Assembly (NCBI RefSeq): GCF_030704535.1 | Contig: NC_081811.1 | Coordinates: forward strand, 4,319,001 to 4,383,000 | Source of the DNA: Vitis vinifera | Taxonomy: Eukaryota; Streptophyta; Magnoliopsida; Vitales; Vitaceae | Length of the DNA: 64,000 nucleotides | Direction: 5' to 3' | Shown here: positions 11,501-60,111 of the stretch, in pieces | Layout of the letters: each line of letters starts with the position of its first letter | Position numbering within the stretch: the first letter of the stretch is position 1 | Notes under the pieces: generated by a model | What the model was told of the DNA's origin: nothing | The model's input: the letters and a program-made list of their open reading frames with translations, nothing else | Database searches by the model: none | Program-made: the position numbers and the translations under genes

Positions 11501-13835
11501 GAGTACTGGATTCTGAGAATAGAATGAAGTGGTGGAGATATTTAATACTTGAATCATAATAGGAAAAAAAAAACAGAAAGAAAGAGAGAAAGAACCAAAG
11601 CCAGCTACAACATGCTAAAGTTACAGAAAAAGGGCATGATCAAAGCACTTGTTATTAACTTATTCTAGATTTAGTCCTTTTCATGTATGCTCTACAACTA
11701 AAAGTGTGGCTTTTCAGGGTATGAATTAACACATTCTGTCAAGCAGATAAGGCAAAAGATATTTAAAGAAGCAACTCCAGGAAGAAATAGATACTATAGA
11801 AACCTGCAACTAGAGAACAGAATTTATGTTCATCCAAATTTTATAGTATCACAAAATATGAAACTGGATTCTCCATAAATCTGAAAAATGAAATTTATGT
11901 TAAATGAGTTCCCAAATGAATTAGCCTCCAGACAAATTTTTATTTCATGATTATTCATTATTGCAACAGTTCACTGAGAACCCATTCAAGAATAGAAAAG
12001 TTTTGTAAGGAACACAAACAAATGCAGCAAAAAATTTCAATCACAAAACTAGTGCAGCCAAAAGTGTACTGTATACAACTCTTTTTTCAGAGTTGCAAAA
12101 GAAATAAAAAGAGAAAAGAGCAGAACAGGTTAAAAACTACGTACAATCCAGAAGTGAAAAGGAACCAGTTCCGAGCAGTGTGGGAACATCAACAGCGCTT
12201 GGAGCATTTCCTCCAACCTCACCATGCAACGGAGGGGCAGTATTCAGCATCAGTTGCTTCAGAAGCTTTACCAAGTGATCCTTTCCAATGTGTGGATACC
12301 TAATGGTAGCACAAATGGCAGGATCAGTAACTCCAGTAATTGCAAAATTGAGAGGTAGCATGAAACAGACAATAATAAAAGTTGACAAAAATGTTTCAGG
12401 AAAATTGAAGAATACCTTGACGATTTCCACAATCACATTCAGATCCCTTTTTGATTCATCTTAGGAAAGAATATACGTATTTTGAAACTTGTAGTGGCAT
12501 GCTTTGGTATGCTAATATGGGAGTGATGGGGGAAAGTCTTTTAAAGTTTATTCAAGGAAGAAAGGGAAAACCTAAGTAAACTTTAAGTAGGATTAATATT
12601 AATTAGAATTGAATAGGGATTGGTATTTGTTGGAGTCTAATTAGGATTAGCTAGTTGAGTTATAATATAATTAGAATTTGAGTCATGATAGGTTATTAGA
12701 GTCCTAGTAGAATAGGTTATTAGAGTCCTAGTAGACTTTGGATTTCTTAGAAAAGCCTATAAATAGGCTAATCAATGTAAATCAAAGGAATGAATTTTGA
12801 TGAATAATATTATACTTTCTTTCATTGCAAGGTTGCAACCCTCAATGGTGAGACTCCATTGATTTTCTTCTAGGTGAGACTCCTAGAAGGCCTTAGTGAG
12901 ACTCTAAGGTTTTCCATCTTTTTTTCATTGTTTCTTCTTTCTCTCTATTTCTTATCTTATAATTTTCTCTACCATAAAGTTTATTCCTTGTTCCTCTCCT
13001 TACACCCTAAAAATAAAACCCTAGCCCACCTACCCTTGAGTGTAGGCAACCATCTTAGGGTTGTCCTACATCAGGGAGGCTCCTATTTTAGGAAAACACA
13101 GGTATTTGAAGCCAGTTTTAAGCTCAGGTAGACTAGAGTTATCTTCAGTAACCTAAAAAGTGTTTCTATGATTTTTTTTCCATCATTCCCTCATCTCATT
13201 AGATCAGTTTTCATGTGAAGAATTGTGAAACAAAATTCATACGGCAGACTACAATTTAACTAAATATGTAATTCCATTGGAACAGATATACACAATACAA
13301 ACCAAGAATTTTAGAACTTACCACAAAGCTTCCTACCTTTAGTTCTGAACTTCTTAAAAAACTAAATAACTTTATATAGAAATTTGCAAGTGTCGAACAA
13401 AATAAGAAGTGTATAACCAATTTAAAGGGTTTCTTAACTCATCAAATAACTTTATATAGAAATTAACAAGTTAAAAAATATTATATACCTCTCCACCAAA
13501 TTATTGTAACCTAGTGGGAACGAGAAGCCGTTGTCATTTTCATCCCCACTGCATGCTCCACTCCTTGAATACCAAGCATGGTATCTTCTAGGTAGAAGCT
13601 CATGTTCCAAAAGCTCATTCCAAAATTGTCCAAAAGTTTTCTGGCATGGGCCAGCTGATAGAAAATGCATAATCAAAAAGTAAACTTCTCTAAGGTCAAT
13701 ATCTACATCTGCCACAACATGATCAGTATTTCTCTCCTGGCATTGAGGCCTCTCATGCAACTTATTCGAAAAACTCAAAGGTACCATACTAAGAGAGGGT
13801 GCCTCACTAGAAGATTTGCACTTCTGGAAATCCAT
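2507..13835 (-). CDS. BRWD/PHIP-type WD40-repeat protein (probable bromodomain protein), 5' part
   Basis: Thirteen coding exons read on the minus strand: 13835-13489, 12299-12145, 11311-11072, 8643-8534, 8398-8321, 8240-8134, 7897-7803, 7715-7585, 7438-7335, 7254-7177, 7012-6934, 6637-6469, 2577-2507. They join in frame to 588 codons with GT-AG introns. The N-terminal 160 or so residues (DLREVYFLIMHFLSAGPCQ, LLPRRYHAWYSR) match the conserved leader of plant and animal BRWD/PHIP proteins. From about residue 235 come WD40 repeats with GHRDAVYC, GSDDRLVKIW, ASNDFIIRVW, SSDDGSCRIWD and a last exon reading CRICVWNAADG. The rest, expected to include the bromodomain, is beyond the left edge. ATG 13835 is the first in-frame Met after an acceptor at about 13855, so the 5' UTR is split. 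Introns carry a copia element, LINE plus SINE, and a solo LTR. The bromodomain is inferred from the family, not seen. Confidence 0.9.
3600..6460 (-). mobile_element. Degenerate L1-type LINE (ORF2 remnant) in a WD40-gene intron
   Basis: Read on the minus strand, pieces of a plant LINE ORF2 appear in order. A linker before the reverse transcriptase lies around 6180-6270 (WTQLGDKN-like). The RT palm begins around 5964-5731 (TLIPKSN, FRPIGLCNVIK). The active-site region is at 5457-5107 (QPLRGIRQENSLS; the FADD box is degraded to FVED). The RT C-terminal and zinc-binding (zf-RVT) part is at 5102-3632 (DHMFKNCPFVLGIWDHI). Frames are repeatedly interrupted. It has the same strand as the host gene and accounts for most of the 3.9 kb intron between 6469 and 2577. 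The ends are not sharply defined. Confidence 0.82.
6292..6396 (+). mobile_element. tRNA-derived SINE nested in the LINE remnant
   Basis: About 105 bp containing a pol III A-box-like TAGCTCAAGTGG (6303-6314) and a B-box-like GGTTCAAGTCC (6348-6358), ending in a run of A. It is flanked by a direct repeat, CTTGGTTAAGTTTTTTGG at 6274-6291 and a near-identical copy at 6397-6414, which differs by one T in the T-run. This is a typical LINE-mobilised SINE target-site duplication. Box spacing, A tail and duplication together make the call firm; the family name is not assigned. Confidence 0.85.
9654..10160 (-). other. Possible LINE 3'-end fragment in WD40-gene intron
   Basis: The stretch opens with a T-run (9652-9661) followed by sequence of the LINE 3'-UTR style (GATAGGCAAAAAACAG...). 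It suggests a minus-strand, 5'-truncated retroposon in the 2.4 kb intron 8644-11071. No clear target-site duplication was found and the right limit is uncertain. The remainder of this intron (8650-9640 and 10160-11070) shows no coding potential. Confidence 0.35.
12524..13073 (+). mobile_element. Solo LTR (family A) in WD40-gene intron
   Basis: A 550-bp block with TG...CA ends (TGATGGGGGAAAG ... CCTACATCA) and a perfect 5-bp target-site duplication, GGGAG, at 12519-12523 and 13074-13078. There is no internal region, primer-binding site or polypurine tract, so it is a solo LTR. A second member in reverse orientation is at 55784-56347. It sits between coding exons 12299-12145 and 13835-13489. 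An apparent reading frame inside it is not a gene. Confidence 0.9.
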
Positions 13836-16800
13836 ACTTTTGGTACAACCTGATGCAAGAGAATAGGCATCGGCTCAAAACCTTTACTCACAATTCATGC
13901 AACTTATGTATACAAACAAACTACAATATCAAAAACATCAATACATTCTGCAAAAAAGATGACAGCTAGTAAACCTAGAATATCATCATTTACAAAGACA
14001 TAGCTAACACAGGTAACAGTGGCTCAGACGATGCCTAATTGACAGCATAATAAGATTTTTTAACATCAATACCATCACAAGCAAGAAAGAAAATTTTACC
14101 AATTACTAAAAGTGAAAAGATCCAAAATTGAAAAGATAACAGTTGGAGGCCCGTGCAGTGTGAACAAACAACACTGTCGCACTTTGGCACAAATACAATT
14201 TGTCAGACATGGAAACTGCTAGGATAAGCATCATAAGATGGTAACAAATTTATAGGATTCCCACCATAAAAAGATAGTACACTTTGCAAGTGTTCAAACT
14301 GATTCCAATGTGTCAAATTGACTAGTGCTTAACAGCAAGAGACATTCAAGAGTAGAACTTACCTAGTATCATAATTGAGGGAAATTCTTTGAGTTTTTTT
14401 TCTTTTGATAAGTAAACAAGAAAATATTATAAATGATTGAGGAAAATTCTATGGTGTTCACACATAAATATCTCATCTATCAGATTTTTGCAAATCAGTC
14501 TCAACCATTAAATTCAGCGGTAAGGATAGATTTCCAAACATCTTAAGATCTAGACTCACCATTGGATGACCACATAGTTAACATCCAAAAAATAGAAATT
14601 TGCTCTCAAAGTAAGAGAGTATCCAGAAAATTTTAAAACAAGATGCATTAAAAGGCTAAATTCAACCCCAATAAACAGAAAATTGAAAACAGGCTTTCTG
14701 GTCATTGATTTCCAACCCATTTCATGAAGCTAACAAAACCATTTACTAGTGAAAGGTTTACAATGTTTTTGCGAATTTCCATATTTTCAATGCAGTATTT
14801 TATGAAACCTGAGGACAAGGTGTCCTTTGGGGGAGTGCAATGTGATTCTAATTTCCAAGGAATTTGGTGGAAGTGTTAATTGAAGTGAACATTCTTATAT
14901 ATGTAGCTGTAACAGGAAGGAATGGGATAAATTGTGCAATTCTTACTATAAGCGAAAAGACTATAATAGCTGTTGCAAATAATTTTCCAAATACTGAATC
15001 AAACATGATTTCATCTTGTTGCACCGTTATTGTTAGTTATCAAATAGCCTGTTCCAACCATTAGGCGAAGCCCCATTTTGGTCTCTTCCACAAAATTTCC
15101 ATAAAATTATCAAACCCCTTCATTGTTGACCAGGAAATCATTTAAATTCATGGTAGATTTTACACAATATTAATAAAAACTCTTGAAAAATTGCAGTTTC
15201 CTTATAAGCTTAGAACAACCACCATGATTGTGCACAATCCAAATCATGTAATCAAAACGAAAACAAAAACAGAAAGAACTGTACGAGATTGTCTTCTGAC
15301 AGTGACATAAGCAAAAAATCAGCCCTCCAGAATGGTGACACACCAATTAAAACACACTGCCAGTCAAGAACTACAAAATCACACTAAACTGACACCTCCA
15401 AACTCAATATAAACATTAGGAATTAATAAAGCCAGAAACAATAATCAAATTGAAAGCTATCATCATTCACAGACTAGACAAATGTTTGAAGTAAACTCCT
15501 CAAGATCCAACCAGAGGCCGGCAGAAGCTCGATTCGCATTCAAACAAGATCCAATTACCTTCGACAGAGTTGGTTTCGATACGAGAGGGAGCTTCTCGTA
15601 GTTAGGGAGGCAAAGAAGACTTGCACAAATGAAAAAATGAAAACAAATCAATCAAATGGAAAGGAGAGAGTTTCAAGTGATTCGATGTTGAAGAGTAGAG
15701 AGGAGATATACTATCTTGAAGGGCTCAGCTTTTTCCCTTCATTTTCCCGGTAGTTTTTCTCGGGAAAAATATAAGCGGAAAGATGAGGAAACTGGTGAAA
15801 AGAAAGGATTTTTCAAAAAATCAAAAAAAAAAAACAAAAAACAAAAACGCGAGAATTATTCCAGAAAATAAGATTTAAAAAATGTCATAAAAAGGAATAT
15901 TAAACAAGGCGACTTAAGGTGTGATATGGGCACCCCTTTCAGTGATGAATGGGCGCTTACTTAGAGTGAAAAGACGAATACGCCCATTGTCTCGGGCAGA
16001 AGCGTAGAAGACACCCCAGTTTAAAGTTAGGGTAAACCAAATATGGTTTTTAATTTTTCTGGTAACGTCATAAATAGGATTTTTCAAAAAGGTTTGATTT
16101 GAAAATATGAATTAACGTTAGAATCTCATTTTCTATGTCCTTTAATTGATTATTTTGTGAAAATACCCATTCCTTCCATATTTTCAAAGAAGTAATTAAG
16201 CTCATTAATGATAAAAAAATTCGACTTTCTATTATTAATTAATTTTTAGTTTGTTTCCTCTCTCTATGACAAAAATTAATAGGTAGAATCATAAATTTCA
16301 TACCATTTTCAGGAATTAAGATATACTTTTATCATATTCCCATGTTTGTTGAAAATGTTTTCAAAAATAGTTTTTAAAAAACAATTTATACATTTGATGT
16401 CTTCCAAAACACTTTTTATTTATTTATTTGTAATAACCTATTTTTTGAAAATAAATAAAAATAATTAAAATATGTTCTCCACTTCTCCAAAAAAACCATA
16501 TTTTTAGAACAAATTTTTTAGAAAAAACAGTTCTCAAACATTATCTTAGTTGGAAAATAAATTTGGTACTCAGTGGCTCCAAAACGACCCTTACAAATTC
16601 AAGAACACCCAACACTGCTTTAAAAGGCGTGCTAACTAGTTGAATGGAAATCACTAACATAACTTTTACTGCACCTTATGCCTTTCAAACTATGAAACAC
16701 TGCAATGACCAGTAACATGCTCCCTCAGACAACAACCTGGTCATTTGGGAGGGTGAGAATTTTGGAGACAACCACAACATTTTCCATTTCTTTCTCTACC

Positions 16801-17079: not shown

Positions 17080-24269
<7,190 letters not shown>

Positions 24270-46175: not shown

Positions 46176-47245
46176 CCAACTATAAAAAAAAGGTAAAGAC
46201 GAGAAAATTATGTCTCTCTCCTAAATCCCTTAGATTGACTAACCGTTTTTAACCGTTTTTAGATAGAGAAAAAAGTACCGATCGGTTGTTTTGGTAAAGA
46301 GAGGACCATTTTTTAAATAATCCCATTGATTCCACTTTCCATCAAAATGGACATCTAGTTATTAGATTTTTTTTTTTTTTAAATTGACAAATGCAATATT
46401 TATTTAATAATTATTTATTTATTAATACAAAATAGGCATATTACCATAAATAAAAGTGGCAAGTGGGCCACTTTACAAAAGTAGGCTGAGAAGAATGCCC
46501 ATATTTAACTTTCTTGAATTAGATAGGGCAAATTTGGATTAGATTGAATTTAACATCAAATATAAGAAATTGAGTCAAAGTTGACTTAAATGATAAAAGT
46601 GGTTGAAAATTAGGCATGGACTAACATCATCCTTATGATAAAAGTGGTTGAAAAGTTTATTGATTCAATGAATTTATCCAACTTTATACTAATTCATCTT
46701 TATCCTAAAACATTGTATGGAAGTTTCTATATATGTTGAGACTCGAGATCACCTAATTTATAAATCTATGTTCTTGTTCTTACTAACTTTTTAATATTTA
46801 ATATTTAAATAAAAACCTACCATCAAATTTATCTGAAAATTCAATTATTTGTTTTAAAATATCATAATAAAAATCTATTTATAAACCTAAAATATATTAA
46901 ATCTAATTTTATATTTTCAAATATTTTTTAAACTATTTTTAATTTGTTTTTATATTTTCAAATAATTTTTATTTATATAACTATTTTTAAAATTAACTCA
47001 ATAAACAAATAAAAATTATAAAAATACCACATTTTTAATAGAAAATTATTAAATATATTTTCACACGTTTTCTGTTTGTAATAATAAAAATTTATTTGGA
47101 AAAACCAGTCAAAATCGCTCCAAGCAATTTGTTTGCTGAATCCCACTAAGAATTTTAAGAAGAAAAGACGGCGAAGCCACTGCCCCCTCCACCAACCCCC
47201 GATAAAATCAGTCACGCCCATTGGAATATGCCTCGGAACATTTGA

Positions 47246-47356
47246 TGACGTCATTACACACGTCATCAAACTGCACCGACAGCACACATCATTAAAAAAA
47301 CGGAAAAAGAACCTTTTGTTGACGCCGTCAAAACGCAGCGATTTCGTCTATAAAAG
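47246..47356 (+). promoter_or_regulatory. bZIP gene promoter: ACGT elements and TATA box
   Basis: A perfect CRE-like palindrome TGACGTCA lies at 47246-47253, another CGTCA at 47261-47265, and TTGACGCCGTCAA around 47318-47330. A TATA box TATAAAAG is at 47349-47356. The transcription start is then expected near 47380. The palindrome is itself a bZIP binding site, so auto- or cross-regulation by bZIPs is possible (inference). Confidence 0.65.
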
Positions 47357-47538
47357 CCCCCGCTCGATAGCCTGTTAAATCCTTCTTTCTCGCGTCGGTT
47401 GCTTGTCCAGCTCGATTTCTTCTGATCAGCTAAGTATTTTTCCTATTTTCTTTGGGTTTGTTTAGGTTTTTCCCCTTTTCAATTTCTTCGCTTCTTTTCT
47501 AGATTTGTTCGTTTGGTTTAAATCTAGAGTTAGGATAA

Positions 47539-47571
47539 ATGATTATAGGGTTTCGATTACAGAATCTATGA
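47539..47571 (+). CDS. uORF1 in the bZIP leader (10 aa)
   Basis: ATG at 47539, stop TGA at 47569-47571. Its stop overlaps the start of the SC-peptide uORF in the tetranucleotide ATGA (47568-47571), a layout that can favour reinitiation or leaky coupling. The peptide itself is not recognised as conserved. Confidence 0.5.
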   Translation: MIIGFRLQNL

Positions 47572-47654
47572 GCTACGCAATCCTCACGCGTCGCATCCGA
47601 ATTCTCCACTCGTTCTCAGTTGTGTTTCTGTACTGGTTCTATGTCTTCTCATGA
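47568..47654 (+). CDS. Sucrose-control peptide uORF (SC-uORF, uORF2)
   Basis: A 28-aa upstream frame 139 nt before the bZIP start. Its C-terminus reads SFSVVFLYWFYVFS followed by TGA, the conserved SC-peptide of plant group S1 bZIP mRNAs. In that family high sucrose makes the nascent peptide stall the ribosome near its stop codon and represses the main frame. Identity of the C-terminal residues and immediate stop are seen directly; the regulatory effect is established for the family and inferred here. Confidence 0.93.
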   Translation: MSYAILTRRIRILHSFSVVFLYWFYVFS

Positions 47655-47691
47655 ACTCGATCCGTCTTTGAACCTCATTTGTTCATCTTAA
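47641..47691 (+). CDS. uORF3 overlapping the SC-uORF (16 aa); uORF4 inside
   Basis: ATG at 47641 lies within the last codons of the SC-uORF in another frame and ends with TAA at 47689-47691. A third frame starts at 47651 and stops at 47671 (6 aa). Overlapping small frames after the SC-uORF are a known layout in group S1 leaders. Ribosomes using them bypass the SC-peptide and still terminate about 100 nt before the main ATG. Confidence 0.55.
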   Translation: MSSHELDPSLNLICSS

Positions 47692-47792
47692 ACACTAATA
47701 TAACATAGAGAATTCTCCGCCAATTTGAAAAATCATTGTTTGTTCGGTTGAATAAATAAACCCCTAAAAAATTTCTGGGAAAATTGGGGAAA

Positions 47793-48230
47793 ATGTCAGC
47801 GATGCAACAGCAATTGGGTTCTGCCCCCAATTGGGGTGAACCAAAAATTGCGGTGATTGATGATAGGAAGAGGAAGAGGATGCAATCGAATCGGGAATCC
47901 GCGAAGCGGTCACGGATAAGGAAGCAGCAGCATTTGGACGATCTGTTGAGCAAAGCAGCGCAGCTGCAGAAGGAGAACGGACAGATAGCGGAAAGGATCG
48001 ACAAGACTACAGAGCTGTATATCAAAATTGCGTCGGACAACAATGTTTTGAATGCTCAAATTGTGGAATTGACCGACAGATTGCAGTCACTGAACTCGGT
48101 TCTTCAGATAGTGGAGGAGGTTAATGGCCTCGCCGTCGACATCCCTGAAATGCCCGATGATCTGCTGGAACCATGGCAACTCCCCTGCCCTATGCCGATA
48201 ATGTACCCTGCAAACATGTTTCAGTGCTGA
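47793..48230 (+). CDS. bZIP53: Group S1 bZIP transcription factor, bZIP53-like
   Basis: An intronless 145-aa nuclear transcription factor. The basic region (DDRKRKRMQSNRESAKRSR, about residues 23-41) has the invariant N33-x7-R41, with the zipper starting at L51. The C-terminal portion, with RLQSLNSVLQIVEE, DIPEMPDDLLEPWQLPCPMP and a final MFQC, matches the bZIP53 branch of group S1. The family binds ACGT and C-box sites, dimerises with group C bZIPs, and controls amino-acid metabolism and low-energy and seed-maturation genes. ATG 47793 is chosen because it has A at -3 and opens the frame; a second Met follows at codon 4. The leader contains the SC-uORF. Assignment as bZIP53 rather than another S1 member rests on the C-terminus and should be tested by phylogeny. 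Confidence 0.93.
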   Translation: MSAMQQQLGSAPNWGEPKIAVIDDRKRKRMQSNRESAKRSRIRKQQHLDDLLSKAAQLQKENGQIAERIDKTTELYIKIASDNNVLNAQIVELTDRLQSLNSVLQIVEEVNGLAVDIPEMPDDLLEPWQLPCPMPIMYPANMFQC

Positions 48231-50850
48231 ATGATCTCGGAGCGTCAGAAGTCTCTCTGTTGGTTGTTTTTCGTTTGTTTGATATGGTCTTTGCTTTAGG
48301 TGTGTTGGTTAAGTCTCTTTTGGTGTGTTCAACTTCTTTCAGTTCTCTGTTTATATGTAAAAGCTTGACATTTCTAGCGTATGGGCTGTCATTCATGTCT
48401 CATTGATTATCAGGTTTGGTGGTTGGAAAGCCAATTTTCATGGTAGGTAAATGGTTGTATCATCTATGGAATGGGAATGGAAATGAGGAGAGGAATTAAA
48501 ATCAGGGATTTGGTTTTTAAACTAATGATTTATTTTATTTTATTTTCATTCTCAAAAATAATTCAAACCGTAGCCTTACAAATGTGAGATGATGCGAGTC
48601 TGGTTGTTTTTGGTGACTGTTGTTATGATTAAAAAAAAAAGATGGTTAGACGTATTCAATTGTCTGCTTCTGCTTGGTACTGTTTTGTGGCTGGCGACTC
48701 TCTTGAAGAGCACAGGCACTGAATGTATATTTGTATGGGATAAATGTGAATGTCAGGTTGAAGGACTTCCCACTTTAGGTTTTTAGTTTTTCAAATTTAA
48801 GCTTTAAAATAAGATATTTGAAATAATTATTTTTTAAAATAAGAATAAATAATAAATAATTTAAAATGACTTAAATCTTAAATTAACTTGCTTTAATACA
48901 AGTAAAAAAATTTAATATTTAATATTATTAAATTCCATTTAAATTTAAATTAAAGCAAAGTTTATTTACGGGCATTTGGATATAGTATGGGATAAAATGA
49001 GAAAAAATATAACATATTCTATCCCCAATCTCTTATATGATATCTTATCATTTATCTGATCGGCGACCACCACATTGGATGAAGTTACTTTAAATATAAC
49101 AAAGTTTATTGGTCTTTCTTTTTATATCTTTTATATTAATTTTAAGTTAATGTAAAATATATCTTATATATCATAAAATTATTTATTATAAAATTAAATT
49201 TATGGTTAAAAAACAAAAATTTAAAAATATTTATAAAATATATTGTAAAATAATATTAATGCATGTATTTTTTTAATATATATATTGAATATAATAATAT
49301 ATAAAAATTTATTTATAAAATTTAAATATTTTAATCATAAATATTGTTAAGCATAAGCGAGATTTATTTATTTTGTAGATTAAATATAAATATAATACAA
49401 CATATGGATATACTAATTTAAAATATCATGTTTATTAAATTTAATATTTAAAAATATTATATTATATTAAAAATAATATTTTAAGATATATATTTTTTAA
49501 TCCAATGATATAAGATATCTTATCTCCATTTCTTATTCCAACTTATCTGCCAATCAGGCAGCCTAAATTGAGTTGATTTACGAATGCTTGTAATGTATCA
49601 TTTGGAAGATTCATTTCTGTTCACAGCTCATGTCCATTTAAGACATGGACTTATTGGACCAATTTAAGATATTATGAGGTGGAGTATTCTTGTGGGGTTC
49701 CATGGTGACGGAACGCACCATCACAAAATTAGGTGGGACTCGTTGTTTATGAGCTCACTGGTTTTCATTATCTTCTGCGTTTCCCCCATGTTGGATGGAT
49801 GACTGGACCATTAAAATGAGGCGTGTAAAGTAGCACTAAGGACAAGAATAAAAAAATGAATGCCTTGTCAACACTCAAAAATTCCTTCTCAAGGTTACGG
49901 TCATCACATGTGAACTCCTTTACGGGGATTCCTTCCCCCATCAAATGTTTGATTAATTTCAAAATCTCACTTAATTGATATTAAATTTAAAACCCAGGAG
50001 AGAGGGTGGTGGTGGGGAGTGGGGTTTCTGCAGCGCTTTCCCCAGATTTCATGAAGTTTGCCTAATGGGAAGGAAAAAAAACCCAAATCAGGGCCTATCT
50101 GAAAAACCCTGTGCCATTTTCTTTCGTAGGAAGAAGATTATGGTTTCCAACACCCATATGCTGGTGGTTAAAACAAAGCTGACGTTCAATCGAATTTATC
50201 TCTCAAGATGGTATGGTATATGCTAAATGGAACAAGGAGATTATTTTTCATACTCCAATTGAACATAACAATGAGGACGAAACATGGGATGTTAAATTCG
50301 AGAAAGGTGACCATCATTCTTCAAAACTGCAGCTTGTCGGGACAACGACAAGATAGCTCGATTCGAGCTTTGGTGCTAGAGCAATTGAAGATGGCCTGCA
50401 AAGCAAGGAAGACCCAAGGGGTGGTGCGGGAATTCCTTTCGATCTCCGAGTTATGTTTTTGGTGGAAACAAGAAGGTGGGAATAAGAAATGAAGTGTAGG
50501 AATTCTTTTCCTTCCCCTTATTTTCAATTTTGGCATCTTTATGTAGTGTTTTATTGGTAAATTTGGGAATAGTACTTGAGTTGTTTGTACGAGATAATGT
50601 TGCTTTTCCCTTATTTTTTATTTTGGCATCTTTATATGGTGTTGTCTTAGGAATAGTGATTGAGTTGTCTGTAAAAGATAATATTGCTTTTTGGTTGTAT
50701 GAGATGATTCTATGCCATCTATCACAATGTGATAATTATGTTGTCATATCAAATAAAGTTAAAGAATGACGTAAGAAATAATAACTTTCTTATTGTTTGT
50801 TGTGTTTATATTTTGTACCTTCGTATCAATCTTAAAATTTATGACTTTGG

Positions 50851-51449: not shown

Positions 51450-54400
51450 ATGAACATCAACAAAGCCTACCACCGGCTTTCTCTCCTCTCGCATCACCTT
51501 CCCTTTTCTCTCTCTCCCCCTCATTTTCTCTCACTCTCTCTCCCCAGATTCACATCTACCCGTACACGTGGCCGCCTGAGAACACTCCCTTCCTGCGCCG
51601 GCGGCACCACCACTCGTGCCGCCATGTCCTCCTCCAGGTTTCTTCATCTCGTCCCTATCAACGCCGCTGCAGCCGAAGGTGACACCGGCGTCGGCTCTAA
51701 TGGCTCTGTTTCGTCTACTGCCGAAGACGAAGGTGCTTTGGAAAAAGTGTTTCTTATCTATGTTCAGAGCTTTATTTATTTACTTTTTTGGGGTTTCGGA
51801 TTTGATCGGACGTATTAGATTTAGTGATCATCGCATATCGTTATACTCAGTTGAATAGCTGAGGTGGTGTTTGGTTAGTTTTGTGCGCGGACTTTTCTCG
51901 CTTTTTGGAGCACAAATTGAAGTTTTTGTTCTTCCGTTTTTGTTTAATATTGATAAGCAGAAAAAGTACTCACAAATTCGAGTATTTTGTTGATTTTGAG
52001 TTTGTTTCAAGAAAATATAGGAATTGAGTGTTTGAGTTGAATTAGATTGAATTTTGAGTTTTCTTTAGACATTTTCTTGTAGCTGTTTCAGTGTATGATT
52101 GAGCTTAGGTCATTTCTAAATCCATTAAGGAGAATTACTACAGTAAGAAGCATGTATTCAATTCAACAGAATTGGATTTTTGGAATCAAATTCAGTTATA
52201 TGTCAAAATTGGTTGCAGCCATATGATTGTTGATTGAGCTGGTTTTATCTCCCTCCAGTAACTCATGCATATATCGATTCATATAATGCAGAAAATTCGG
52301 CATTGGGAAGCGGTTATCGGCTGCCTCCTCCTGAAATTAAGGATATTGTTGACGCTCCACCACTTCCCGCATTGTCATTCTCACCACAGAGGGATAAGAT
52401 ACTATTTCTCAAGCGGAGAGCTTTACCTCCACTAGAAGAGCTAGCAAAACCCGAGGAAAAGCTGGCTGGTATTCGCATTGATGGAAAATGTAACACCAGG
52501 AGTCGGATGTGAGTAATGGGGAAGCTTTTCAGCTATGTTTTTATGCACATGAGAAGTTGGGCATTCATACACATTTATAGGATAGTTGTTTATTTGGTCT
52601 GCCTTTCTGGATATATGGACCTTTAGTGCAGTCTAAGAGGTTTGGCTTTCTCAACAACTGTTATATCCCATGTCTTCTTTCCAGAGTTCCCCAGCAAAAT
52701 ATTGTCCTCCAGCGACAGCAAATTGTCTAAGCCCTGAATAGGTCTCTAATTGCCTGCAGTGACTCCAAGGAGATGAATAGGCTTAGTGAATTTTGCAATT
52801 AGAGGTCATATGTATTGTGTGGGTCTGTATCTTCTTCTTTCTTCGTGACTCTTGTTGCAAGGAAAAAGTGGATTTTATTTGCTCAATATAGAAATATTAA
52901 GAACCAGGCATTTCATTGAATTGTCATGTTGATTAATTTGGGTTTTTCCCCTCTGAATTTAAGCTTGCTACATTGGTTAATACTTTAATATTCATCTTCA
53001 GGTCATTCTACACTAGTATTGGGATCCATCAGTTAATGCCTGATGGTACTCTAGGGCCAGAGAAAGAGGTACATGGCTTCCCTGATGGCGCTAAGATTAA
53101 TTTTGTTAGCTGGTAATTTTCTGGAATTTGTTCTTCTTGGTACACTTTGCAAAACCTTTTGAGAGCATCTCACTGTCTGAGTCTGTTAACATTTCAATCC
53201 GATACTCTTCTTTTGTGCTGATGGATCTATTTATTTTGTTTTTCTCAAGGTCACTTAATGGTCAGCATTTATCCTTCAGCATCCGAGTTGATGAGGTAAT
53301 TGATCCATTAGTTAAGATTTGAGTACTGACATCAAATCAATGTGCTTAATGTTGCTTCTCAGACAATCAATCATATCTGAGAAACCCCCACCCAGTGACC
53401 TGACTATTATAAACTTCATTTGTATTTTGATTGCTGGAATGGTTGTTTGATCCACACCTGCATCATATAAAAATATTTAATAGACAATACTAGTGAGCCT
53501 AGATAACTTGCTATGGTGAATACTTTTGGTGTGCCTCTTGTTGGGCTTTGTGGTCGTGGGGTGGGGTTGGTGTTGGGGTTCTCCTGTTGATTGATGAATC
53601 TGCTTGGTGATTTTCTTAGGCACGAGTTTAATCTAATTTTCAGATCATAACCATTATTATAATGTTTTGTTGGTTTCAAATATATTCCATTTTGGAAATT
53701 TCCTAAGAGGTACTTTAGATCCTTACTATCTTATACTCTACATGCAAATAACTATATGTCATATTCTTGTGCAGCATCCTACTTAGCTATGCAGTTTTTT
53801 CCTTATCTCCTATAAAACACTGGTCTAATTTCTAGAAATTTTTCCTGGGACAGGAGGAGAACAGTAGTAGCAAGCTTAGAATATGGGTTGCTGATGTGGA
53901 AACTGGGAAAGCTAGACCCCTTTTTCAGTCACCAGATATCCATCTCAATGCAGTTTTTGACAAGTAGATGCTAGTTTTCTATGTATGAAATTGTAATTTA
54001 GGAACATTTACCTGTAGTTTTGCTAATTCCCTTCTTCTCTTGCTTCTCAGTTTTGTTTGGGTAGATGACTCTACTCTATTAGTTTGTACCATTCCTTTAT
54101 CTCGTGGAGATCCACCAAAAAAACCATTGGTTCCCTCTGGCCCCAAGGTTCAATCTAATGAGCAGAAGAATGTCGTTCAAGTAAGAACCTTCCAGGATCT
54201 GCTAAAGGATGAGTATGATGCTGATTTGTTTGACTACTATGCTACCACACAACTTGTTTTGGCTTCTTTGGATGGGACCATGAAGGAAATTGGGCCACCT
54301 GCTGTATATACATCAATGGACCCCTCGCCAGATCAGAAATACCTTTTGATAAGTTCAATTCACAGACCATATTCTTTCATTGTACCATGTGGAAGGTTTC

Positions 54401-57400
54401 CCAAAAAGGTAGATCTATGGACAAGTGAAGGGAAGTTTGTCAGAGAACTTTGTGATTTGCCCCTTGCTGAGGACATTCCCATTGCATTCAACAGTGTGCG
54501 AAAAGGGATGCGCTCAATCAATTGGAGGGCGGATAAGCCTTCAACACTCTACTGGTATGCAAATGAATATTCTACTCTTCTCACAGTATTCAGAACATGG
54601 AATATATTAACTTTAATGTATGGGTACAAACTTTTAATATTGACAATTTTCCAGTGAATGATTTTCAATAGCGGTCTTGAATGTTGATTAAATTCCTCCT
54701 CTCCCACTCTTTGATTCCCTCTCTGTCTCTAATGTTTTGATGAGAGTTGAAAACTCAGATGTTCCATTGAGCTTGACACTGTAAGAGTGCAAGCTGTTGA
54801 TTCTGGGCAGTTCCAAATAAAATGTTATGTCAGTGTCATTTAGATTGCCGTATTTAAAAAGTAAGATTGAACAAACTCAGAGGCTGCATCATATGAATGA
54901 ATGAGTCTGCATTATATGAGTGAATGATCTTTCTTCTATGAATGAACTGTAGAGCTCGGCAGTCTTAAGATTAAAATTCCTACTTTTTCATTTAGTAACA
55001 TAAATGACCTAAAATCAATTTTAGAAACCCCTACTTGTTTTTAGTAATATAAATTACTCAAAAGCTATTTTAAAACACACCACAATGGTCAACCAAGCCT
55101 GAGGAATTCTTGTTTGTGCATATAATTTCAACTGCCTATTTAACTTTGTTGAGGGTCAAACACACCCAAATAATTAAACAAATTATATATTTGTGTATGT
55201 ACTTACCAAGCATGAGGAATTCTTGTTTGTGCATATAATTTCAACTACCTATTTAACTTTGTTGAGGGTCATCCTAGGGTGGAGACACAAGATGAAGGTG
55301 ATGCAAAAGTGGAAGTTTCTCCACGTGATATAGTTTATATGCAACCTGCTGAGCCGCTTGATGGTGAACAGCAAGCAATCTTACATAAACTTGATCTTCG
55401 ATATGGGTATGAATGCAGGATGTTTATTTGATTTCTCTTTATCCTGCAAAATTTAAATAAGTAATGTCACATGCAATTCAGAGGGTTCTAACTTTGTTAG
55501 CCCTTTCTTACATTTTTTGGCAAATCATTCTTCTTGGGTATTTTTTACATATAAAGCATTCTGTTTCTATGGGATTGTGAATCTCAGAAATTAAGTAGGC
55601 AAATCCACTCACATTTATGTCCATCAACTTTGTTGTGCTATAGTTGGCTTTTTTAATCATTTAACTTTTTTGTTTCTTTTTTCTCTTTTTTTATGCCCTC
55701 ACTGGGACTCAGACCTGGAATCACAATCCCATTTCAACCCCTATCGTTCCATCAACTTTGTTGAGCTATGCATGTACAATATGTGATGTAGGACAACCCT
55801 AGGATGGTTGCCTACACACAAAGGTAGGTGGACTAGGGTTTTATTTTTAGGGTGTAAGGAGAGGAACAAAGAATAAATTTTATGGTAGGGAAAATTATAA
55901 GATAAGAAATAGAGAGAGAGAAGAAACAATGAAGAAAAGATGGAAAACCTTAAGAGTCTCACTAAGGCCTTTTAGGAGTCTCACCATTGAGGGTTGCAAC
56001 CTTGCAATGAAAGAAAATATAATATTATTAATATCAATCATCCCTTTGATTTACATTAATTAGCCTATTTATAGGCTTCTCTAAGAAATCAAAAGTCTAT
56101 TAGGACTCTAATAACTTATTATGATTTTAATTCTAATTATAACATCCAAAGTCTACTAGGGCTCTAATAACCTATTATGACTCAAATTCTAATTATATTA
56201 TAACTTAACTAGCTAATCCTAATTAGACTCCAACAAATACCAATCTTAATTCAATTCTAAATTTCTAATTAATATTTATCCTACTTAAAGTTTACTTAGG
56301 TCTTCCCTTTCCTCCTTGAATAAACTTTAAAAGGCTTTCCCCCATCAATATGTCTCTCCAGTTCTTCCAAGTCACATATTCTATCACTAAATTTGTGGAT
56401 CTTTTTAAATTATCCGCTTAAAAACATTTGCATCATAGTATTTGATATCCATCATGTCAAGATGGATTACTTGCTACATCTGTTAAATTATGCAATCGAT
56501 TTGTGGTCGACCATAGCTTCTTTTTCTCTTTTCCTTTTCCAAGATCTGCTGAAAGGTTTTCCAAGAATATTTAGTTGATGTATGTGTCTTTTTCCAAATC
56601 TACAGAGGGATTTCTTGGTGTGATGATTCTTTGGCTCTTGTTTATGAATCCTGGTACAAAACACGGCGAACAAGAACCTGGGTCATTTCTCCTGGTTCTG
56701 AAGATGTGAGTCCACGCATACTGTTTGATAGGTCATCAGAAGATGTATACTCTGATCCTGGTTCACCTATGTTGCGGAGAACTACTGCTGGGACTTATGT
56801 GATTGCAAAGATAAAGAAGGAAAATGATGAAGGCACATATATCTTACTTAATGGAAGTGGTGCTACACCAGAGGGGAACATCCCATTCCTTGATTTGTTT
56901 GACATGTAAGTGTCTCAAAATCATGTGTTTGTGGTGTCCCTGTATTCCCCTTTCCCTTTCCCTGCTGTCCCTCTTCCTTCTGGCTGATAATCATGGTTCC
57001 GTAGTTATCTAACACAAAGTCTTTCAGAAATACAGGTAGCAAAGAACGAATATGGGAAAGCGACAAAGAGAAATACTATGAGACTGTTGTTGCACTAATG
57101 TCTGATCAGAGTGAGGGGGATTTATATCTTAATCAGTTGAAAATCTTGACTTCCAAAGAGTCAAAAACTGAAAACACCCAATATTTCATACAGAGCTGGT
57201 TAGATAAGAAAGCATGCCAGATTACAAATTTCCCTCATCCATATCCTCAGCTGGCATCGCTACAGAAAGAAATGATCAGATATGAGAGAAAGGATGGGGT
57301 TCAACTTACTGCAACATTATACCTGCCACCAGGCTATGATCCCTCAAAAGATGGCCCTCTTCCCTGTCTGGTTTGGTCTTACCCTGGAGAATTTAAAAGC

Positions 57401-60111
57401 AAAGATGCTGCTGGGCAAGTACGTGGTTCTCCTAATGAGTTTGCAGGCATAGGTCCAACATCTGCTCTACTTTGGCTGGCTAGAAGGTCCAAATTTCCCT
57501 CTGTTTCCTTTGTCTTTTCTTTTTGGTGTATCCTTCATGAATTTCCTTCTATTTCTCCTTGTCAGTGACTGGTTTGGTTTAGATATTTTCAGCCAATTTC
57601 TGATTGCTCTGGGTCTTTCAGGTTTGCTATTTTATCTGGACCCACAATTCCCATTATTGGCGAGGGCAATGAAGAGGCAAATGATAGGTAATCAGATACC
57701 TCCTATTTTCCAGCATTTAAGTTTTCCATCTTACTCATACAATGTAGTCAAGTTTTCTTAATATAAACTTAAATTAGGTTAATGACATTTAACAATTCAT
57801 AGAATTGAAATTTGTTTCTGTTCTTAAAAGAGCACATTTTCCACACGGTGATGGTTGTTTTGTGAAAAGAATTTGCAAAGCAGTTATGAAAGCTTTTGCA
57901 CCTGGAAAAGCTTAGAGATGGCCTCTGAAGTGGGAAATGGAGTAGGAAAAACGGGAAATGTGGAATCCCAGAAATGCATGAGAAACAAGGTGAACTAACA
58001 TTATTAATGTCAATATTGGTAGGAGCAAAAAACAAATATGGGTTTTCTTAATCTTTGGGCATGGTCCAATTTGCTTATAGCTCTTGGCCCTTCTTCTATT
58101 GTAGATTTTGTGTTTTGGATAGGGTCTTGTTGAGGGGTGCCCTTTTTTGTTGTCATTCTTCGTTTTTTTTGGTGGCGTCTTAGGTGCCCATTGTATACAC
58201 CCTGTATGCTTTGGGGCACTTTTCTGGCGCTTCATTTATTAATGTGCACTCTCTTTACCTATAAAAAACAAAAAAATGGGTTTTCTTAAACCATGAGGAA
58301 TAAAGACTATTTGATACAGAATTGGTAGATATAGTTGGAAAGCTGGTATGAAAGAAATTCTTTCCCTAAGCTACTCTCATCATTTTGTACTACTAGCAAC
58401 TGGGATAATATCTATTAGAAATCAACGATGTTGCTTAACATGGTATAATGGTACTGAGACATAATGAACCTTTTCAGATCTGTTTCTTCGAATTTCTCTT
58501 ATTCATTTCCCTTGTTGACACTCCTTGCCACTCTATGAATCCTGCATTCAATAAGATGTATGTGCTGTTTCTGTTGCTCTTCCATGTATATTTCATGCCC
58601 TCCTTTCCTCCAAATTCTCTCGTAAGAAGTTACTGATCTTTTGTCATTATGTTTTTCAAGAGTATTTGTAGACTTCTAACATGATCAATGAAGGTGTGCG
58701 TCCATCTCTTGATCTCATTCTGGAACCAACAAAGATTGGAATCTCTCATTATTATGTCTCTTCTCACAACAATTGATTTTTCTGCAAAGTACAGAAATTA
58801 TACTAGTATACACCGAGCTTCTTTTTCTCCTCCAGCTTTTTTACTTTGTCTTTTGTAAAAGGATTAGTACTTTGCTTTTGTTTGGAGGCTGAAAACATGC
58901 ATTTAATTGGTTTTCTTTGTTGACTAGTAAAGAGGTTTCACAAAACTAGTTTCTCTATTTGAACCATATGTGTTGATCAGGTATGTAGAGCAACTGGTTG
59001 CGAGTGCAGAGGCTGCGGTGGAAGAAGTTATTCGGCGTGGTGTAAGCTCCTTTACTCTTCTCTGTAGGAATGTTATTAGGAAGGTTCTGAGGTAGAATTT
59101 TAATCAGAGCTTTTGTGGTGTACTGAAGGTGGCTCATCCAAACAAAATTGCTGTTGGGGGTCATTCCTATGGGGCATTTATGACTGCAAACCTCCTAGCA
59201 CATGCCCCTCATCTGTTCTGTTGCGGAATTGCTCGTTCTGGTGCTTACAACAGAACACTTACACCTTTTGGCTTTCAGGTAGCACACTGGTTAGAATGGC
59301 TAAAATTTTGTTCTACTTCTAATTTCTTTTCTGCAGCTGAATGGACATATTTTTTTAAAGAAATTATGTTAGCATTCATGGCAGTCTCTATAGTTTCTTG
59401 TCTCAGTATGATTTAGTTATTATCTTTTGCCATGTAGAATGAGGACCGAACACTCTGGGAAGCCACTGACACTTATGTAGAGATGAGCCCTTTCATGTCA
59501 GCTAATAAAATCAAAAGGCCTGTCTTGCTTATCCACGGAGAAGAAGACAATAATCCAGGGACACTTACGATGCAGGTAAAAGAAAAGGTTTCTTTTTGTT
59601 CAACTTCTTAAGATGTTGCTAATTAACTGATTGATAAGCACAACTTTTACATGGAAGTAATTTCTTTTTCAGATTTTCATTTTTAAGTACTATTCCAAAA
59701 ACTGATTTTAAGTAGGTTAAAGTTGGTAAAGTAGTTCTTTTCTTCCAATCTTGTTTACTTGACACATAATTTGTACTCTCAAAAACAATGCAGTCAGATC
59801 GTTTCTTTAATGCTCTGAAAGGTCATGGTGCTCTTTGTCGCCTGGTGATTCTTCCCTTTGAGAGCCATGGCTATGCTGCAAGGGAGAGTATCATGCACGT
59901 CCTTTGGGAAACAGATAGGTGGCTACAGAAACATTGTGTATCAAACACTACCAATGTGAATGAAAATCTTGATACATGTAATGATGAGGCAAAGGAAGAA
60001 ATTACTGATCCGGAAAGCAAGACAGTTCCTGCCAGCGGGGGAGGCAACCCAGAGCTGGCAGAGTCAGAGCATGAAGGATTTCACCCTAGGGCTAGGGCAT
60101 CATTATGGTAA
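51450..60111 (+). CDS. CGEP: Chloroplast glutamyl endopeptidase (prolyl-oligopeptidase family, S9)
   Basis: Fourteen exons: 51450-51732, 52292-52508, 53002-53112, 53250-53295, 53854-53963, 54051-54554, 55278-55406, 56606-56905, 57028-57486, 57622-57687, 58981-59041, 59129-59278, 59438-59575, 59794-60111. Total 2892 nt, 963 aa, typical for plant CGEP. The first 60 or so residues are rich in Ser, Leu, His and Arg, as in a plastid transit peptide. The middle is the beta-propeller region. The C-terminal alpha/beta-hydrolase domain has the catalytic Ser in GGHSYGAF (S775), Asp in HGEEDNN (D849) and His in FESHGY (H883). The family cleaves after Glu in the chloroplast stroma, clearing peptides and processing itself. 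In-frame ATGs at 51381 and 51624 are alternative starts; 51450 gives the best transit peptide. Introns contain a solo LTR, a LINE tail and a duplicated acceptor region. No damage in exons. Confidence 0.95.
55095..55271 (+). repeat. Tandem duplication abutting a CGEP splice acceptor
   Basis: About 64 bp starting AAGCCTGAGGAATTCTTG (55095-55158) is repeated with two changes as AAGCATGAGGAATTCTTG (55208-55271), 113 bp downstream. The second copy runs to within a few bases of the acceptor CCTAG before exon 55278. The copied part would include branch-point territory of the intron. Confidence 0.8.
55784..56347 (-). mobile_element. Solo LTR (family A, inverted) in CGEP intron 7
   Basis: 564 bp, TGATGTAGGACAACCC ... 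GGCTTTCCCCCATCA, with a perfect 5-bp duplication ATATG (55779-55783 and 56348-56352). It is the reverse complement of the 12524-13073 LTR over its whole length with moderate divergence. The different duplications show that the two are independent insertions. It accounts for about half of the 1.2 kb intron 55407-56605. Confidence 0.9.
58052..58275 (+). mobile_element. 224-bp truncated LINE 3' end in CGEP intron 10
   Basis: The insert lies between perfect 14-bp direct repeats ATGGGTTTTCTTAA (58038-58051 and 58276-58289). It ends TTTACCTATAAAAAACAAAAAA, an A-rich tail, and contains TTGTATACACC..GGGGCACTTTT, also found in the 30783-30854 insert. It is therefore a 5'-truncated LINE copy in plus orientation. 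Confidence 0.85.

Follow-up and report, generated by a model that had tools for sequence, protein, structure and literature searches.

An apparently intact sucrose-control uORF in the leader of a bZIP53-like gene of Vitis vinifera

In Arabidopsis, the leader of AtbZIP11 carries four upstream open reading frames (uORFs) of 18, 42, 5, and 18 aa, the second of which is the sucrose-control (SC) uORF (PMC2738917), and uORF2b is described as overlapping uORF3 and uORF4 (PMC1896003). Within uORF2, the residues S29, S31, L35, and Y39 are thought to be essential for the sucrose-induced repression of translation, and the stop position of the SC-uORF is described as invariable in angiosperms (PMC4960570). 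The length of the SC peptide was given as 28 residues in a review (PMC8795868). Moreover, the uORF was reported to confer repression by sucrose in tobacco tbz17 (PMC3310857) and in two gymnosperm leaders (PMC4960570), and sucrose repressed a barley bZIP53 uORF-reporter construct that was assayed in leaves of Arabidopsis (PMC12148973). According to the counts of one study (PMC11120861), the SC-uORF was detected in 5 of 5 S1 genes in Arabidopsis, 5 of 10 in poplar, 3 of 7 in tomato, and 2 of 5 in maize, and in none of those counted in apple and potato. The retention of the SC-uORF is not universal.

The SC-uORF and the downstream bZIP gene

The window analyzed here is a 64-kb stretch of V. vinifera DNA (64,000 nucleotides). 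The uORF under study and the gene behind it are located as follows:

47568..47654, + strand: SC-uORF, 28 aa, MSYAILTRRIRILHSFSVVFLYWFYVFS followed by a TGA stop (translation, ORF listing, and uAUG scan)
47793..48230, + strand: main ORF, S1-group bZIP, bZIP53-like, 145 aa (Pfam bZIP_1 PF00170, E 1.3e-12)

The SC-uORF is a plain ATG-to-stop ORF. Its peptide was aligned to the 42-aa uORF2 of AtbZIP11 with the stop codon as the anchor, and S29, S31, L35, and Y39 of AtbZIP11 corresponded to S15, S17, L21, and Y25 here, with agreement at all four positions. The stop lies three residues past the tyrosine (Y25, V, F, S, stop), which is the fixed angiosperm position; this agreement is not independent, because the stop also anchored the alignment. 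The features compared with published data were these four residues, the stop position, and the arginine pair discussed below. The original prediction took the conservation of every C-terminal residue as a sign that sucrose control is retained. The four residues do count as supporting evidence but are not decisive, because gymnosperm uORFs with just two of the four residues and a different stop position still mediate sucrose repression (PMC4960570).

The probability of such a peptide arising by chance was evaluated in several ways. Base composition predicts 1.4e-14 occurrences of SFSVVFLYWFYVFS followed by a stop in the 64-kb window, counting both strands. In an ungapped BLOSUM62 comparison with the 21-residue C-terminus plus stop, the SC-uORF scored 113 and the second-best place in the real window scored 33, compared to maxima of 21-37 across 15 simulated 64-kb sequences from a first-order Markov model. 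The pattern S.S...L...Y... followed by a stop, which represents the four residues and the stop codon, had a single match in the window, at the SC-uORF. The chance expectation for this pattern is 0.37 matches in 64 kb over both strands, which makes it weak evidence alone, and 0.0012 matches in a 413-nt leader, when the leader is assumed to span 47380-47792. A chance occurrence of the SC-uORF peptide is ruled out.

The 28-aa peptide had no match in Pfam or NCBIfam at E up to 1. Text searches with fragments of the peptide, which cover the text of publications and not their figures, found no paper on S1 bZIPs. An N-terminal extension of the SC-uORF from a non-AUG start was also considered and rejected: the frame is open to a stop at 47463, which leaves 34 codons with no ATG, and nothing favors its use.

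The protein encoded by the main ORF, which is uninterrupted from ATG to stop, matched the bZIP_1 model above the cut-off. Only two bZIP models in Pfam and NCBIfam scored above their cut-offs, and the weak coiled-coil matches were below theirs. In PDB there were three weak matches, to TGA3, CREB, and CREB1 (E 0.0065-0.0091). Then, the protein was compared with provisional reference sequences of three Arabidopsis S1 proteins, out of a group of five that also includes bZIP2 and bZIP44. Against these provisional references, the identity was 52% with AtbZIP53 over 147 aligned columns, end to end including the C-terminus, 47% with AtbZIP11 over 92 positions, and 28% with AtbZIP1 over 122 positions. 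Subject to these provisional references, the designation of the main gene as bZIP53-like stands, AtbZIP53 being the closest of the three. Searches for bZIP relatives confirmed none of 8 pattern-matching stretches in viral contigs and none of 62 in contigs of prokaryote genomes, and gave no match in a plasmid collection, which is expected for a plant gene.

There is good support for assigning 47568-47654 as the SC-uORF of a bZIP53-like gene of the S1 group: its place, its stop, the four residues, the downstream bZIP, and the multi-uORF leader. The original prediction of an intact SC-peptide uORF ahead of a bZIP53-like gene was thereby borne out. It had further described the start as differing from that of any typical leader, and this could not be upheld: the start is ordinary, since it yields 28 residues, which is the SC-peptide length given in the review (PMC8795868). 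The remark that such a uORF is easily missed by annotation is fair as regards gene callers, though the SC-uORF family itself is well described.

Several other coding-like stretches were observed elsewhere in the window. On the forward strand, 180-2193 contains Ty1-copia-type retrotransposon-like remains with several overlapping open stretches, including an RVT_2 reverse transcriptase domain at 792-1364 (E 2.2e-52), and the part at 1657-2190 had no Pfam match. On the reverse strand, 13455-13874 has a BRWD1-like N-terminal domain (E 8.8e-26) and may belong to a bromodomain/WD-repeat gene, and 20374-20751 probably represents an MCM helicase exon (Pfam MCM, E 1.9e-27). A run of open stretches at 53989-60111 on the forward strand resembles the exons of one peptidase-like gene, perhaps that of a chloroplast glutamyl endopeptidase; the two stretches of it that were scanned had no Pfam match.

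Leader architecture and probable promoter

Between 47371 and the main ATG, the uAUG scan found four upstream ATGs, at 47539, 47568, 47641, and 47651. Apart from the SC-uORF, they open the following uORFs:

47539..47571, + strand: uORF1, 10 aa, MIIGFRLQNL, whose own TGA overlaps the SC-uORF ATG (ATGA) (uAUG scan)
47641..47691, + strand: short uORF, 16 aa, whose ATG lies within the SC codons TAT GTC (uAUG scan)
47651..47671, + strand: short uORF, 6 aa, MNSIRL, whose ATG overlaps the SC stop (TCATGA) (uAUG scan)

All four uAUGs are in weak context, with a pyrimidine at -3 in each and G at +4 in none. At -3 and +4, the bases are T and A for the SC-uORF start, and A and T for the main AUG. Given its weak context, the SC start would capture only a fraction of the ribosomes. 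Start-stop overlaps flank the SC-uORF on both sides, with the ATGA at 47568-47571 shared with uORF1 and that at 47651-47654 shared with the 6-aa uORF. As uORF1 ends on the SC start, it could divert ribosomes from the SC-uORF. The two downstream AUGs are possibly incidental, because TAT GTC and TCA TGA, which belong to the coding sequence of the conserved peptide, generate them. A relay, in which translation of uORF1 would decide whether the SC start is skipped, a ribosome stalled on the SC stop codon would mask the two downstream AUGs, and the sucrose response would become non-linear, is an unlikely arrangement.

The spacers to the main AUG are 138 nt from the end of the SC-uORF, 101 nt from the 16-aa uORF, and 121 nt from the 6-aa uORF. 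All of them exceed the 50 nt reported as enough for reinitiation downstream of a simplified uORF cluster from AtbZIP11 (PMC3020687). In a search for RNA structure, there was no Rfam match in 47000-48600 at E up to 1.

Motif scans of the upstream region gave two features:

47246..47267, + strand: two ACGT-core sites, TGACGTCA at 47246-47253 and a second ACGT at 47260 (motif scans)
47349..47354, + strand: TATA-box-like TATAAA, probable core promoter (motif scan)

The TATA-like box starts at 47349, 219 nt ahead of the ATG of the SC-uORF, and transcription would probably begin at about 47380. The ACGT pair at 47246-47267 sits approximately 100 bases before this box, and a role of the pair as candidate bZIP-binding sites is speculative. 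TGACGTCA has a single occurrence in the window and is present at least once in 22 of 100 shuffles, so that the motif alone is not significant, and it was not retained as an autoregulatory site.

Proposed mechanism and alternative readings

According to later papers, the ribosome on AtbZIP11 was reportedly found by Yamashita et al. in 2017 to stall at the uORF stop in a sucrose-dependent way. We consider it highly probable (about 0.9) that this SC-uORF mediates sucrose-dependent control of the bZIP53-type gene via stalling on the nascent peptide. The ORF, the peptide residues, the stop position, the start contexts, and the layout were observed directly, and the transcription, stalling, and sucrose dependence assumed here would be as in the relatives. 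The predicted site of stalling is the stop codon:

47652..47654, + strand: TGA of the SC-uORF, predicted sucrose-dependent stall site (computed positions)

Scanning ribosomes that initiate at 47568 would synthesize the SC peptide. At high sucrose, the nascent C-terminus (S15, S17, L21, Y25, and their neighbors) would hold the ribosome in termination at this TGA, and the held ribosome would block those following it, which would lead to less translation of the bZIP from 47793. At low sucrose, the ribosome would be released normally at the SC stop, and ribosomes may arrive at the main AUG either through leaky scanning, bypassing the weak uAUGs, or through reinitiation after crossing the spacers of 101-138 nt. 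A -16/-46 rule for the decay intermediates was described for many conserved-peptide uORFs (PMC9305500). If stalling at the SC stop follows this rule, the 5' ends of decay intermediates are therefore predicted at 47636 (-16) and 47606 (-46).

The SC-uORF might instead be translated but act as a constitutive repressor, either independently of its peptide or insensitively to sucrose, by ribosome siphoning or transcript decay. Four uAUGs in one leader would cut translation of the main ORF regardless of the peptide, and the reinitiation factors eIF3h and RPL24B are reported to matter for the AtbZIP11 leader (PMC1896003, PMC3020687). We regard such a repressor as improbable: a peptide-independent uORF needs neither the four residues nor the stop position, both of which were kept, and the tested relatives respond to sucrose (PMC4960570, PMC3310857, PMC12148973).

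The other two readings depend on how the transcript starts and is spliced. In the splice scan, which was rough and used ad hoc weights, no good donor/acceptor pair flanked the SC-uORF: the best donor in 47361-47640 had 0.5 bits, and the best acceptor between the SC-uORF and the main ATG had -1.9. The best-scoring acceptor-like site of this rough scan, with 2.4 bits, was at 47562, immediately ahead of the SC ATG, and a leader intron ending there could drop uORF1 and keep the SC-uORF. Splicing out of the SC-uORF was rejected as a candidate, as the rough scan gave no convincing pair. The same result, together with the TATA-like box upstream of the SC start and the expectation that a disused relic would lose residues over time, argues against the SC-uORF being a DNA relic absent from the main transcript, be it through a downstream transcription start or through splicing. 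S1 genes with no detected uORF are reported in several species (PMC11120861), but for this locus we judge a relic to be very improbable. It is hardly credible that the stretch is an alternative N-terminus joined to the main ORF, with no regulatory uORF. The SC-uORF and the main ORF do lie in one frame, but three in-frame stops (47652, 47706, and 47757) intervene, so that splicing would be required, and the rough scan gave no good acceptor; furthermore, it is the stop position of the uORF itself that is described as invariable in angiosperms (PMC4960570).

For sucrose-dependent control by the SC-uORF, the relatives provide the basis, and its retention in this gene is a sound inference from them. 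With the SC peptide intact, the bZIP53-like gene would probably be translated mainly at low sucrose, which would tie it to the low-energy program.

Comparison with known SC-uORFs

The locus resembles AtbZIP11 in the S/S/L/Y residues at equal distance from the stop and in the S1-type bZIP downstream. Both leaders carry four uORFs, two short ones of which overlap the 3' end of the SC-uORF. The SC-uORF of AtbZIP11 has 42 aa with an internal second start, whereas that described here has 28 aa and one AUG, and the uORF sizes are 18/42/5/18 there versus 10/28/16/6 here. The main protein is nearer to bZIP53 than to bZIP11, as judged from the provisional references. With AtbZIP53 and HvbZIP53, the likeness is at the level of the gene type, the main gene being of the same type.

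As in tobacco tbz17, there are multiple uORFs and the SC-uORF is the second in order (PMC3310857); as in strawberry FvebZIPs1.1, there are multiple uORFs and the SC-uORF is the longest (PMC7470447). The conserved arginine pair that was edited in strawberry has its probable counterpart in R8 and R9 here (PMC7470447). Unlike tbz17 and FvebZIPs1.1, for which two Met codons in the SC-uORF are described, the SC-uORF here has one. Editing of the strawberry SC-uORF increased the translation of a reporter as well as the sugar of the fruit (PMC7470447), and correct annotation of the SC-uORF is useful because of this effect on fruit sugar. This SC-uORF thus adds one apparently intact example to a well-described family, with a type of control that is already known from AtbZIP11 and its relatives.
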